The translations under genes and the position numbers were made by a program. Shown piece by piece: positions 8,583 through 17,125 of a DNA stretch of 23,168 nt (position 1 is the stretch's first letter; each line of letters begins with the position of its first letter). The notes beneath the pieces are model-generated. The model was not told where the DNA came from and made no database searches. It saw only the letters and a list, made by a program, of their open reading frames with translations. The stretch is from Promethearchaeota archaeon (GTDB lineage Archaea; Asgardarchaeota; Lokiarchaeia; Sigynarchaeales; SOKP01): NCBI GenBank assembly GCA_030620005.1, contig JAUXAJ010000042.1:1-23168 (forward strand), in the 5' to 3' direction.

Positions 8583-9608
8583 TTAATTGTCCACTTCAGT
8601 AATTTTTATGGGTCGATTCTCTTCAAACGATTTTTGAGCGGCCATTGCTACTAAGACGTCTTGCAGGCCGTCATCACCATTAGGGGAAGGATCTTTATTA
8701 TTTTGAAGGCAATCAAAAAAATATCGCAATTCGTTTGCGTATGATTCCATGTATCTTTCTAAGAAAAAGAACGGAATTTTATCCGTGCTAATATTTTCAA
8801 CGGTATATATACGGACTGTATTGGGGGTATCGTTATCTGCAATTGCGCAACCTTTAGAGCCAAAGACTTCAACTCGTTGGTCATATCCATAAACTGCTTG
8901 GCGAGAATTATCAATAATTCCTAACGCATCATTTTTAAATTTCAAGATGGCAACTGCCGTATCAATGTCTCCTGCCTTGCCAATTTCAGGATCAATGAGG
9001 ACGCCCCCACTTGCGTATACTTCTTCAACTTCGCTCCCCGCCTGGAATCGGGCCATATCCCAATCGTGAATAGTCATATCTATAAAAAGACCTCCAGAAA
9101 CCTTTATGTACTCTATTGGTGGAGGAGATGGATCTCGAGACGATATTTTAATGATCTGAGGCGTTCCAATTTGGCCAGAAGCAACGGCATCGTGAACTCG
9201 CTTAAAGTTGTGATCAAAGCGCCTGTTAAATCCGACCATTAGTTTAACACCTGCTTTTTTGACAATTCCCAAAGTTTCCTTTATCCGCTTTACATCCGTA
9301 TCAATCGGTTTTTCGCAAAAAATGTCTTTCTTTGCTAAGGCTGCTTCTTGAATGAATTTCGCGTGGGTATCCGTAGAAGAAGCAATTACTACGACATTTA
9401 TCTCAGGATCAGTAAAAACTTCACTTGTATCTGTTGTGAATTTAGCCACGCCCATGCCTTCAGCCCATTGTTTCAATTGGTCGTCTTCTTTAATATCTGC
9501 AACAATTTTTAATTTCACATCAGGTACATTGCGCAAGAGATTCTCTACATGAATTTTTCCAATCCGTCCCGCGCCTATCACGCCCACAATAAATTTTTGT
9601 CTTGTCAT
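8583..9608 (-). CDS. iolG: Inositol 2-dehydrogenase (Gfo/Idh/MocA family)
   Basis: A 341-residue NAD-dependent oxidoreductase. The N-terminal Rossmann domain carries GAGRIG at residues 12-17, and the catalytic lysine lies in CEKPID (K100). The C-terminal domain has the Asp/His pair of inositol dehydrogenases in FIDMTIHDWDMARF (D177, H181), followed by typical IolG signatures (AGDIDTAVAILKF, IIDNSRQAVYGYDQRVEVFG, FFFLERYMESY). The expected reaction is myo-inositol to 2-keto-myo-inositol (scyllo-inosose) with NAD+. This is the step before the enzyme encoded by iolM at 15.9-17.1 kb. The gene begins 33 bp after the ferredoxin-domain gene and is likely in its operon. The start is the ATG at 9606-9608; no strong ribosome binding site. 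Confidence 0.9.
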   Translation of the reverse strand: MTRQKFIVGVIGAGRIGKIHVENLLRNVPDVKLKIVADIKEDDQLKQWAEGMGVAKFTTDTSEVFTDPEINVVVIASSTDTHAKFIQEAALAKKDIFCEKPIDTDVKRIKETLGIVKKAGVKLMVGFNRRFDHNFKRVHDAVASGQIGTPQIIKISSRDPSPPPIEYIKVSGGLFIDMTIHDWDMARFQAGSEVEEVYASGGVLIDPEIGKAGDIDTAVAILKFKNDALGIIDNSRQAVYGYDQRVEVFGSKGCAIADNDTPNTVRIYTVENISTDKIPFFFLERYMESYANELRYFFDCLQNNKDPSPNGDDGLQDVLVAMAAQKSFEENRPIKITEVDN

Positions 9609-12993: not shown

Positions 12994-13240
12994 AAAATTT
13001 AATGGAATAAAATTTCCAATCAAAACTTTTGTTTTAAATATAACAGATATTAATTCTAACGTGTTTAAAATATCCAGCGATAAAATGGCGTAGCAATTTA
13101 CTTCAAGCACGGACGAAAATCGGTAATAATAGAGGTTAAAATCCATGTCCAAATACCTGTAAGCGTACTTGTCCATGAACATATGAGAATCCGAGTCGTA
13201 ATGGCTCAGGATGTATTGAGTTAGTGCGCCTTGATCTACC
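12994..13240 (-). pseudogene. Orphan coding remnant ending at the AOR junction
   Basis: A minus-strand frame, open through the AOR junction, reads RQDEVDQGALTQYILSHY, then DSDSHMFMDKYAYRYLDMDF, and continues to a stop at about 12991-12994. Its first half has more G+C than the surrounding spacer and looks like protein, but I do not recognise it. Beyond about 13250 the same frame is simply the antisense of the oxidoreductase. The sequence therefore appears to be a piece of another gene joined to the 5'-truncated oxidoreductase. The rest of 12797-13230 is featureless AT-rich spacer. Confidence 0.35.
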
Positions 13241-15014
13241 TCATCCTGCCTTCCAATAGCCTTAGTAAAGAAGTAATTAATGATCTTCCCATATCTGATG
13301 AAATTTATGAAAATTATTTGGGGGGAAGAGGACTTGGTGTTAAATTATTAACAGATCGAATGCCTGCAAGAGTAGATCCTTTTAGCCCTGAAAATATCAT
13401 GATCTTTGCAACAGGTCCTTTTGGAGGGACTACAATTCCAACTAATGGAAGGTTTTCATTAGTAACAAAATCACCTCTTACGGGAGGGATCTTCTTCTCC
13501 AATTCTGGCGGTTTCTTTGGAGTTTTCATGAAAAAATGTGGTTATGATGGAATTCTAATTGAAGGCGTATTAAAAAAATCTGGTTATCTATTAATAGATG
13601 AAAATAATGGAGCAACAATAAAAGATGCTTCAAATCTTTGGGGCCTTGATACTGAGGACACATTGGAGAAATTGAAAGAAATCGAAGGAAAAGACGTTCA
13701 CGTGCTAATGATCGGACCTGCAGGAGAAAACTTAGTTAAAATCGCGAGCATAATGAATGATGCCGCTCGTGCATTTGGAAGAGGGGGTTGGAGCAGTGAT
13801 GGGATCGAAAAAGATCAAGGCAATAGTTGTAAAAAGGGGTAAAAAGAAAATCGAAGTTGCCGATCCCGATTCTTTAAAGAAGTTCGTTAAAATGGCAAAC
13901 GATAAAATCAAGGTAGTACCCATTACTAGATCTTCTTTGCCTAAATTTGGAACATCCGCACTCGTAAACGTGATAAATGTGTTAGGAATGTTTCCCATTA
14001 ATAATTTTCAAAAAGGGCATGACGAAAGGGCTACTCAAGTTAGTGGAGAAGCCATCAATGATGCCATTTTCCAAGAACAAGAAGGTTGTTATGCTTGTCC
14101 CATTCGTTGCGGGAGATTAACCAAGGCGGGTGACATGGAAGGAAAGAGTCCTGAATATGAATCAGTATGGGCGCTTGGACCTAATCTTGGAATTTATGAT
14201 TTAATCATGGTTACTCAAGCTAATTATCTCTATAACAAATTAGGGTTTGATACGATCTCATGTGGAGGCGCAATAGCTTGTGCAATGGAACTCCAACAAA
14301 AAGGACTAATCACGGATGATTCACTTGAATTTGGGAATGCTGGAATTCTCAAGGAACTCGTAAAAAAGATTGCTAAAAAAGAGGGGATTGGTTTCGAAAT
14401 TAGCGAGGGTGCAGCACGACTCGCAAAAAAATATAATGTTCAGGAAAGTGCCATGCATGTTAAGGGACTTGAACTGCCCGCGTATGATCCTCAAGGAGCT
14501 GTCGGTCATGCGTTAGGGTATGCTACATCCAATAGAGGGGTATATCACTTGACGGGCTACATGGCATCCTTGGAAATCTTTGCAGCTCCCAAAAAAATTA
14601 TAGATTCACGGTTGGAGGTAAACCTGATTTGTTAGCTCTAAAACAAACCAGAAAGCTGCAGAAGATAGTCTTGTTATCTGCACATTCGCGGGTTGGTCCT
14701 TAGGGCTTGATTATTATGCTCGCTTCTTGAGGGCAATCACGGGACACGATTATGATGTTATTACGTTAACTCAAATCGGAGAACGAATTTATACTCTTGA
14801 AAGGTTATTTAACATTCGAGAAGGTCTTAATAAAGAAGATGATGAATTGCCTCCTCGTTTTCTTAATGACCCCCTCAAGGAGGGAGCGTCAAAAGGACAC
14901 GTGGTACCTTTAGATTTAATGTTAAATCAATATTACTATGTGAGAGGTTGGGATGAAAATGGCGTTCCAACCAAAGAATTAAGTGATAGATTGGGAATTA
15001 ATTTTAAATCATAA
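13231..15014 (+). pseudogene. Tungsten aldehyde ferredoxin oxidoreductase (AOR family), broken
   Basis: About 595 codons of AOR-family sequence in four frame segments. Motifs present: YENYLGGRGLG, MIFATGPFGGT, CYACPIRC (three cluster cysteines), AYATSNRG-like GYATSNRGVYHLTGY, the fourth cysteine in LVICTFAG, and the usual tail YVRGWDENGVPTKELSDRLG. The frame is lost at three points: about 13783-13791 (a G run, 2 nt missing, between GRGG and GAVMGSKK), about 14591-14604 (an A run, 1 nt missing, before FTVGGKPD) and about 14641-14648 (1 nt missing, before NQKAAEDS). The normal N-terminal 15-20 residues are absent and the sequence before codon 7 or so belongs to something else; only a TTG is available as start. 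Active AOR oxidises aldehydes with ferredoxin. Taken as a pseudogene, though some indels could be homopolymer sequencing errors. Confidence 0.85.
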
Positions 15015-15812: not shown

Positions 15813-15822
15813 CTTATAAAAG
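15813..15822 (+). promoter_or_regulatory. TATA-like box of iolM
   Basis: CTTATAAAAG is about 70 bp before the iolM start codon, with an A-rich BRE-like stretch before it. Transcription would begin near 15845, leaving a leader of about 40 nt. That leader contains GGAG (15867-15870) and a six-codon frame (ATG at 15865 to TAA at 15883-15885, MELIKK) whose stop overlaps the iolM ATG as TAATG. Confidence 0.45.
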
Positions 15823-15884
15823 TTAAATTTAATAGAATAATATTAATAATTACATTAATTGAACATGGAGTTGATAAAAAAATA

Positions 15885-17125
15885 ATGAAAGCCGTAGAAT
15901 TAGATGCAAAATGGGATCCTAAGCCTGATTTCAAGCTTGGTTATAAGGATGTTGATGGAAAGTTGAGCTATTTGGGCTCTCAAGTGTGGAGAAATCCTGT
16001 TGTTAAAATAGTTGAAAAAGATATTCCTAAAATTAAGCCAAGTGAAGTTTTAATCAAGGTAAAAAGATGTGGAATTCTTGAAAGTTAGCTTTCAAGACTA
16101 CAATATGCGGTTCTGACGTTCATATGGCGCAATCTTACGACGATGGATATATATATTACCCTGGATTGACTGCCTTTCCAGCTACGCTTGGTCACGAATT
16201 TGCTGGTGAAATCGTTGAAGCCGGAAGTGAAGCCATAAGCAAAAGAACCGGAAAACTTTTTGAAAAGGGCGAACCAGTAACTGTAGAAGAAATGGTGTGG
16301 TGTGGTGAATGTAAACCTTGTTGTGACGGTTATCCTAATCATTGTGAACGATTGCAAGAAATTGGGTTCTCCATTGATGGAGCATATGCAGAGTACATAG
16401 CGGCACCTGCTAAGCTGTGTTGGAGTTTAAAAAAGCTTAAGAAAAGTTACGATGACATATATAAAATTGGTAGTTTGGTAGAACCTACATCTGTTGCGTA
16501 TAATGCGGTAATAGAAAGGGGTGGTGGAATTAAACCGGGGGAAAATGTTGTTATTCTTGGCGCAGGGCCGATAGGCATAGCTGCCACGAGAATCTTAAAA
16601 ACCGCCGGAGCGGCAGCATGCATAGTTTCAGAACCAAACGAGCACAGAGCGATATTGGCTAAAAATATGGGGGCTGATTATATGATTAATCCAACTAAGG
16701 AAAATTTTGTTGAGCGAGTTAAGGAATTAACAGATAACGAGGGTGCAGCGCTTTACTTAGAAGCTACTGGGCTACCTCACGTTGTAATGGATGATATTCA
16801 AAATGCCATTTGGGAATGTAAATCAGTAAACAGTACAGTTGTAATTGTAACTCGTGCTGAACAAAGAATGCCTGTATGTGGTGAATATTTCCAAGTAAGA
16901 AGAGCCCGCATTGTTGGCGCACAAGCTTAAATAAATTTATTATTTAAAGTGCATGGTCACAGCGGGCACGGTACGTTCCCTAATGTTATAAGTTGCATGG
17001 CTGCTGGCATGAACATGACGCCTATGATTACTAAAGAAATAACCTTAGATGAGGTACCGGAACATTTGAAATTATTACAAACTGACAGAAAAAATTGTAA
17101 GATTTCCGTTAAGATTGGTTATTAA
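15885..17125 (+). CDS. iolM: Scyllo-inosose 3-dehydrogenase, interrupted by two BHB introns
   Basis: Exons 15885-16074, 16104-16924 and 16955-17125 join to 394 codons (393 residues plus TAA), close to the length of the Thermotoga IolM protein, which it resembles from end to end as I recall it (MKAV.L.AKWDP.P.FKLG at the start, VGAQGHSGHGTFP.VIS near the end). It is a zinc MDR dehydrogenase: CGICGSDVH (catalytic Cys65, encoded directly after intron 1), GHEFAGEI, four structural-zinc cysteines in CGECKPCCDGYPNHC, and Rossmann GAGPIG. The reaction is oxidation of scyllo-inosose to a diketo-inositol with NAD(P)+, the step after IolG. Unspliced, the frame ends in intron 1 at the TAG at 16086-16088. 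Both introns carry in-frame stops, so the active enzyme depends on splicing. Ordinary annotation would call it a pseudogene. Confidence 0.9.
16075..16103 (+). other. iolM intron 1 (29 nt, BHB)
   Basis: Central helix GTGG (16069-16072, exon) with CTAC (16098-16101, intron), one G-U pair. Bulges AAT (16073-16075) and AAT (16102-16104), exactly 3 nt each. Inner hairpin TCTTGAAAG/CTTTCAAGA, 9 bp, with loop TTAG. Cutting after the second base of each bulge, as archaeal splicing endonucleases do, joins GGA-A to TA-TGC and gives Cys-Gly-Ile-Cys-Gly-Ser-Asp. The length is not a multiple of 3, so removal is needed to restore the frame. Confidence 0.9.
16925..16954 (+). other. iolM intron 2 (30 nt, BHB)
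   Basis: Central helix GCAC (16919-16922, exon) with GTGC (16949-16952, intron), 4 Watson-Crick pairs. Bulges AAG (16923-16925) and ATG (16953-16955). Inner hairpin TTAAATAA/TTATTTAA, 8 bp, loop ATTTA, set off by one C-A mismatch. Cutting after the second base of each bulge joins CAA to GGT and gives VGAQGHSGHGTFPNVIS. It contains an in-frame TAA at its second codon. Confidence 0.92.

Follow-up and report, generated by a model that had tools for sequence, protein, structure and literature searches.

The window, the whole 23,168-nucleotide stretch of the Lokiarchaeia-type contig JAUXAJ010000042.1 that was analysed, carries a gene for scyllo-inosose 3-dehydrogenase (iolM) at 15885–17125 on the forward strand. 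The gene consists of exon 1 (15885–16074, codons 1–63 and the first base of codon 64), exon 2 (16104–16924) and exon 3 including the stop codon (16955–17125), with inserts of 29 nt (16075–16103) and 30 nt (16925–16954) between them on the same strand. An iolG gene lies elsewhere in the window on the minus strand (8586–9608). The raw iolM reading frame is broken twice, once per insert, by stops or a frame shift in both. Excision of the two inserts gave a single stop-free ORF of 393 aa, whose product matched the NCBIfam model NF041097 (IolM) over residues 1–387 with 499.9 bits (cut-off 450). A protein search, in which 7,998 candidates were scored and 4,923 fell within an E value of 0.001, showed 80–86% identity between the spliced window IolM and the homologues among the best 120 of the 4,923 matches (predicted proteins of 389–395 aa), and the names of the IolM matches listed pointed to Promethearchaeota, some of them to Lokiarchaeia. 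The original prediction had placed two insertions of these lengths at these positions and held that their removal gives back IolM exactly; both statements were borne out, and the homologue alignment it had proposed supports the intron reading. The neighbouring aldehyde ferredoxin oxidoreductase (AOR) gene (13231–15014) has Pfam pieces distributed over three frames and an odd N-terminus. Its frame breaks, near 13785 (a run of G), 14605 and 14640, appear by eye to be single-base changes, not introns, and a gene frame-shifted three times indicates some decay or sequencing error on this contig.

All excisions restoring the family motif were enumerated for each insert, and the bulge-helix-bulge (BHB) implied by each was drawn. 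Protein-restoring registers numbered five at site 1, where AAT stands at both ends, and two at site 2, and exactly one at each site had BHB geometry. On the forward strand, the first BHB comprises a central helix of GTGG on the exon strand (16069–16072) with CTAC (16098–16101), including one G·U pair, a 5′ bulge AAT (16073–16075) with a predicted cut after 16074, a 9-bp intron hairpin with the loop TTAG (16076–16097), a 3′ bulge AAT (16102–16104) with a predicted cut after 16103, and only two outer pairs. The second comprises a central helix of GCAC on the exon strand (16919–16922) with GTGC (16949–16952), four outer pairs (16915–16918 with 16956–16959), a 5′ bulge AAG (16923–16925) with a predicted cut after 16924, an 8-bp hairpin (16927–16947) separated from the bulges by a C·A mismatch (16926/16948), and a 3′ bulge ATG (16953–16955) with a predicted cut after 16954. 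Both introns have two 3-nt bulges on opposite strands with a 4-bp helix between them, by which a BHB is recognised. The bulges, 4-bp helices and 8–9 bp hairpins of the original prediction were all recovered, while its description of the two structures as complete needs correction for the G·U pair in helix 1 and the C·A mismatch in intron 2; the cut after bulge base 2 that it proposed does restore the product and belongs to the sole BHB-fitting register at each window site. With RNAfold, the predicted fold of intron 1 contained the hairpin, the central helix and the 5′ bulge at 37 °C as well as at 10 °C; intron 2 took a BHB-like form at 10 °C only of these two temperatures. When the inserts were shuffled with the exons fixed, the observed score was reached by 0 of 200,000 shuffles for intron 1 and 6 of 200,000 for intron 2, so that the window motifs beat shuffled inserts in the suggested scoring against controls; these values, with the recurrence in relatives described below, agree with the earlier view that chance or error is unlikely. 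A search of the window at the Rfam gathering thresholds returned 0 matches, which together with the length of 29–30 nt sets the inserts apart from introns of groups I and II.

Genome contigs were scanned with the spliced IolM, yielding 54 loci. Loki-type MAGs, one of which bears the label Helarchaeota, account for 31 of these, and 14 of the 31, including all with a long or broken match, were aligned. Eight iolM genes, the window's included, carry inserts, all of 29 or 30 nt. Site 1 is filled in the window and in loci L014, L015, L017, L022 and L029, site 2 in the window, L003 and L004, and L004 has its other insert 14 nt beyond site 1 (site 1b). Among 227 Asgard genomes searched, 34 matched iolM at an E value of 1e-60, and 32 of these were close (identity of at least 79%), one of them (G024) with a match ending at residue 252; all 32 close genes fall in one class (83 genomes). 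Seven of the 32 genomes carry inserts (five at site 1, one just past it, two at site 2), with intron-free sisters beside some of them, an outcome of the proposed comparison of the same sites in relatives that favours the intron reading. The insert-bearing genes come from different isolates and assemblies, which argues against a single assembly error. In the gene tree the intron-free sisters were L001 (of L003), L012 (of L029) and L006 (of the L014/L015/L017 group); the placement of the window gene was unresolved, and the well-supported branches require at least four changes of intron label, from which repeated gain cannot be told from loss. Around site 2, L003 resembles the window more closely than it does its sister, but 26 of 374 segments compared do as well, and this is only suggestive of a local transfer of the intron together with its flanks. 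Exon swaps involving no intron were also seen, in exon 1 of L008/L010 (87% identity against 97% in the middle) and in exon 3 of L011/L018 (83% against 92%). Six iolM paralogues with stops (L133–L138) were examined and set aside, as their stops lie outside the gene, near its ends, and BHB rows for L003 site 1 and for site 2 of insert-free genes were dropped as by-products of a lax motif test.

Among L014, L015 and L017, which have intron 1 in common, dN was 0.023–0.040 and dS 0.18–0.27, and the resulting dN/dS of ~0.1–0.2 indicates that iolM was kept under constraint after the insertion; of the 12 pairs computed, four gave no dS (saturated) and three more had dS >1.9. In the six site-1 introns 92.3% of cells were paired, a value reached by 6 of 500 shuffles, and both sides had changed in 3 of 13 pairs (44 of 500 shuffles; slid controls 0); within the intron 1 hairpin, three of nine pairs changed on both sides among the six species. 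Each of the 10 iolM inserts has one protein-restoring register that is also the best BHB fit. The geometry is only partly present in L014, L015, L017, L022 and L003, in all of which the central helix is mismatched at its inner end; L022 keeps two of the four pairs, and for L017 the minimum-energy fold (RNAfold, by inspection) favours a neighbouring register that does not restore the frame. The stem of L004 intron 2 is at chance level (score reached by 39,093 of 200,000 shuffles), against 0 to 253 of 200,000 for the other nine iolM inserts. A strict scan for a BHB that restores an ORF over 1.31 Mb gave 26 matches (10 in iolM, two duplicates) compared with 26 in the control and missed L022 and L004 intron 2, and a loose BHB-only scan gave 1,883 ORF-restoring matches compared with 3,744 in a direct-repeat control. 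Because these scans did no better than their controls and iolM stood out by homology alone, structure by itself does not find such introns.

A scan blind to BHB structure was made by tblastn of ORFs against Lokiarchaeal DNA (239 sequences, 2.42 Mb, some stretches present twice), taking interior inserts of 15–60 nt with a stop or frame change. Outside iolM, every interior insert with good support in a host gene of this 2.42 Mb was of 30–31 nt and had a BHB-like register. They comprise a 31-nt insert with bulges ATA/ATT in a transporter gene (Pfam SBF) of L121, L197, L204 and L215, first met beside a cassette (see below), a 30-nt insert with a 9-bp hairpin in an AMP-binding synthetase gene (PF00501, PF16177) of L223, with a score reached by 1 of 100,000 shuffles, and a 30-nt insert with an 8-bp hairpin in a BtuR gene (PF02572) of L022 (5 of 100,000). 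The transporter, which we take from its motif to be of the ACR3 type, has a central helix of GACT/GGTC in three genomes and GATT/GATC in the fourth, a change from C-G to T-A on both sides, and a stem hardly above chance (3,971 and 5,195 of 100,000 shuffles). A further 67 genomes matched the transporter, and none of them had a listed break at the intron residue, although in three or more the match is a fragment that stops short of it. Excision after bulge base 2 also restores the transporter, AMP-binding synthetase and BtuR products, and in total six insert sites in four genes were seen in Lokiarchaeia, with inserts of 29–31 nt. Query L261 gave further rows of low identity in L121 and L215, which coincide with the inserts already described there. 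Other candidates were rejected: the inserts of L164/L216 and L211 lie in proteins of the cassettes and were put down to decay, those of L241 and L254 at query residues 45–47 are weak matches, those of L008, L067 and L010 are weak, 15 nt long and found with one query each, and the transporter gene of G057 merely has a shortened 3′ end.

The machinery expected to process such structures is encoded in the relatives. The splicing endonuclease (PF01974) was found in all eight relatives searched, with two loci in six of them, and RtcB in seven of the eight; the one from which it is missing, G008, has an intron-free iolM. G001 has two endonuclease proteins, encoded by the ORFs L056 1171–1773 and L150 18262–18885. 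One of them can be aligned with endonuclease chains of archaea and has the histidine of 3p1z_B, and the other is without the histidine, as expected if they are the putative catalytic and structural subunits of a heteromeric enzyme. Heteromeric splicing endonucleases are associated with relaxed BHB motifs (as stated in the excerpted text of PMC2738675; see also PMC12397907).

Several intron sites adjoin two-gene cassettes, many of them of nuclease type. At L029 (5775–9990) the displaced original iolM exon 1 is followed by a cassette of two ORFs (222 and 949 aa) and then by a replacement leader and exon 1. The cut-off second iolM start matches exon 1 of the intron-free L012 in 187 of 190 bases, its leader matches as well, and the match ends exactly at the intron-1 site; the working exon 1 agrees with L012 in 137 of 190 bases and the middle exon in 766 of 821. 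Two HNH-like zinc motifs were recognised by eye in the 949-aa ORF, which had no Pfam match above the cut-off. Homologues of the L029 cassette proteins (46% and 61%) lie directly upstream of iolM in L017. L003 has a second, displaced copy of exon 3 at a distance of 3.2 kb on the downstream side of the working exon 3; it matches the sister L001 in 109 of 129 bases, compared with 100 of 129 for the working copy; the ORFs between the two copies are of a different type from the L029 cassette, with helix-turn-helix matches only. ORFs between a replacement and a displaced end, with the native end closest to the sister, were seen in both L029 and L003. The iolM of L007 is intron-free, yet a displaced piece of exon 3 adjoins a LAGLIDADG ORF there. 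A search of the window found neither homologues of the two L029 cassette proteins nor another iolM end. Its iolM leader stretch (15815–15882, forward strand) matches the leader before the L029 cassette-side exon 1 in 56 of 68 bases (score 44, reached by 0 of 2,000 single-base shuffles), and the L029 leader scores slightly higher against L004 (46.5), so the exon ends of the window, L029 and L004 may have a common source.

Of the 83 genomes of the class, 21 encode the N-terminal part of the cassette protein (280 aa), at 52 listed places, and among the best 120 of 191 proteins (E value of 0.001) this N-terminus is joined to HNH_3, LAGLIDADG_3 or other domains; the assignment as nucleases rests on the motifs seen by eye in L029 and, for the others, on the HNH_3 or LAGLIDADG_3 domains of family members. 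When the two flanks of the 52 cassettes were compared (three with a flank too short), a same-strand peptide pair with an E value of <1e-4 was present in 21 of 49. Four of the pairs (L184, L218, L221 and L225) were rejected as displaced ends because they resemble ordinary paralogues, with 25–39% identity. In at least 11 of the 21 followed loci, the host gene and its replacement end form one open frame with no intron. An intron-bearing gene stands beside seven of the 52 cassettes (L029, L017, L121, L197, L204, L215 and L223), that of L223 being the split AMP-binding synthetase. For the transporter, the cassette is adjacent in four of four genomes with the intron, and the intron is present in four of four with the cassette (Fisher 1e-6, with independence overstated since the four genomes are related). 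Both family cassettes beside iolM accompany intron 1 (2/2 compared with 4/30, Fisher 0.03). No cassette of the L029 family was seen beside the intron-bearing genes of the window, L004, L014, L015 and L022, the flank available on one side being only 419, 509 and 311 nt for L004, L014 and L022. Given cassettes without an intron and introns without a cassette, the two do not correspond strictly. In L183 (3273–4706, forward strand), a gene whose product ends in a fucose-isomerase C-terminal domain (PF02952) is intron-free, and its replacement 3′ end shares 75% identity with the displaced original, from which it follows that cassettes can fuse in phase. In L122, L196 and L216, a gene of the HD domain (PF01966) has a cassette at the same place and a displaced 3′ end in each.

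The explanation that we consider best overall, and hold with good confidence, is that the window inserts are BHB introns removed by the splicing machinery, to which a layer of cassette seams is added. Each insert and its exon borders would fold into a BHB in the iolM pre-mRNA, the splicing endonuclease would cut both bulges after base 2, and the RNA ligase RtcB would join the exons into an mRNA for intact scyllo-inosose 3-dehydrogenase, the machinery being the one that archaea use in tRNA and rRNA splicing. BHB splicing of the inserts is very likely on these comparative grounds, and cutting and joining of the mRNA in the cell is highly probable. As to origin, two-gene cassettes of the homing-endonuclease type would enter conserved codons, where introns arise or spread; the cassette would supply a replacement 5′ or 3′ gene end and push the original end aside, leaving the short palindromic intron at the seam between the old gene body and the new end. 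All three elements, the seam and both the replacement and the displaced end, were observed in L029 and L003, and in the window the cassette may have been lost, or the gene may have gained its introns with the sequence around them by recombination. An origin at cassette seams is plausible, and somewhat favoured. More tentatively, with a little less than even confidence, we suggest that Lokiarchaeia have a modular family of cassettes, with a common N-terminus and exchangeable HNH, LAGLIDADG or other parts, which target conserved codons and supply the host with a replacement gene end. At the seam a BHB micro-intron of 29–31 nt would be spliced out, so that the protein is rescued while the site of cutting is destroyed, and introns in protein genes would be a regular relic after cassette loss.

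If iolM were instead a decaying pseudogene, its inserts would be traces left by mobile DNA or small palindromes, and their folding would be due to chance. The stops or frame shifts in both inserts, the three single-base frame breaks of the neighbouring AOR gene and the broken gene ends left by cassettes nearby in relatives are compatible with this. However, the 393 codons outside the inserts are open and 80–86% identical to the homologues listed, three relatives sharing intron 1 evolve at dN/dS ~0.1–0.2, and a protein-restoring BHB register fits the inserts of several genes and species, which makes decay improbable; homologue alignment, relatives and motif controls support the reading of this archaeal protein gene as split by two BHB introns, and not as damaged by decay or error. 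Still less probable is that the mRNA retains the inserts and that ribosomes skip them during translation. Such programmed bypassing is known from phage T4 gene 60 and the byp elements of yeast mitochondria, and short hairpin inserts of nearly fixed size would suit it, as would the near-match of take-off ATT and landing ATA or ATC at site 1 and the ATG/ATG match in the AMP-binding synthetase. The corresponding codons nevertheless differ at iolM site 2 (CAA vs CAT or TAT), at site 1b (GAT vs AAT), in the transporter (CTA vs TCA) and in BtuR (AAA vs ACA), so that the matching take-off and landing codons of a bypass element were not found overall, and hopping leaves unexplained both the 4-bp helix between 3-nt bulges and the C-G to T-A change in the transporter.

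The remaining alternative keeps the BHB introns and gives them an ordinary origin, such as a misplaced tRNA-intron-like sequence maintained by descent with losses, the proximity of cassettes being due to chance or to a shared preference for conserved codons. Some Asgard archaea are very rich in tRNA introns (according to the excerpted text of PMC11291895), the intron loci of the window, L004, L014, L015 and L022 have no family cassette in the flanking DNA available, and no intron is present at 11 or more of the 21 cassette loci followed. Against it, the displaced exon 1 of L029 breaks at the intron site itself, four of four transporter introns lie beside a cassette with no such break listed in the other 67 genomes (some of them short fragments), and both family cassettes beside iolM go with intron 1. 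We regard this account as unlikely, with appreciable weight left to it, and prefer BHB introns tied to cassette seams.

Introns in the cbf5 pre-mRNA of Crenarchaeota were reportedly described by Watanabe in 2002, and a crenarchaeal mRNA for an XPD-type helicase reportedly also has an intron. A search of titles and abstract openings of open-licence PMC papers did not find mRNA introns in Asgard archaea. Archaeal protein-gene introns are known for very few genes, and the excerpt of PMC7714728 names one besides its own. The Lokiarchaeal introns are of a known kind, that of cbf5, and new in their genes, lineage and mobile context. As in the cbf5 case set out in the excerpted account of Yokobori 2009 (PMC2738675), a BHB-like motif spans the borders in a protein gene, the second and third bulge bases flank the predicted cut, gain and loss are patchy, and a heteromeric splicing endonuclease, putatively so in the Lokiarchaeal relatives, goes with relaxed motifs; cbf5, however, is one crenarchaeal gene with cDNA support, whereas the Lokiarchaeia have six sites in four genes, 29–31 nt long and known from sequence, several of them at cassette seams. 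The splicing endonuclease cuts the HVO_1309 mRNA of Haloferax at a BHB, which in the excerpted description lies in the 5′ UTR, outside the coding frame (PMC7714728). Putative introns of archaeal viruses (Peng et al., via the excerpt of PMC2738675) are also very short and in protein genes, but are of 12 bp and viral; splicing is putative in both systems.

For the cassettes, the mobile ORFs of fungal mitochondria (Allomyces atp6; Glomus atp6, atp9, cox2 and nad3; PMC3630166) combine a nuclease ORF and a foreign replacement end with a displaced native end closest to the sister species, an arrangement like that of L029 and L003, where the nuclease nature is putative. In the excerpted part of that paper they insert in phase and replace C-termini, and nothing is said of a BHB intron at the junction; the Lokiarchaeal cassettes, by contrast, have some seams in phase and some with an intron, and replace both 5′ and 3′ ends. 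HeimM2 of a Heimdallarchaeum is also an Asgard mobile element with a homing-endonuclease-like enzyme, but it lies between a 16S rRNA gene and a tRNA gene, and gene-end replacement or an mRNA intron is unmentioned in the excerpted report (PMC8813620).

The comparative evidence points to spliced micro-introns in several catabolic, transport and cofactor genes of a group near the root of eukaryotes, and genes with such micro-introns would be annotated as broken. The tie to cassettes offers a route for intron birth, a question open for cbf5, that can be tested in sequenced genomes. If the proposed family of cassette seams is real, protein-coding introns would be regular in these close relatives of eukaryotes. 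Four cassettes with differing C-terminal parts (L119–L122) lie within ~66 kb on contig C78 of G007 and are a local cluster of gene-invading elements.
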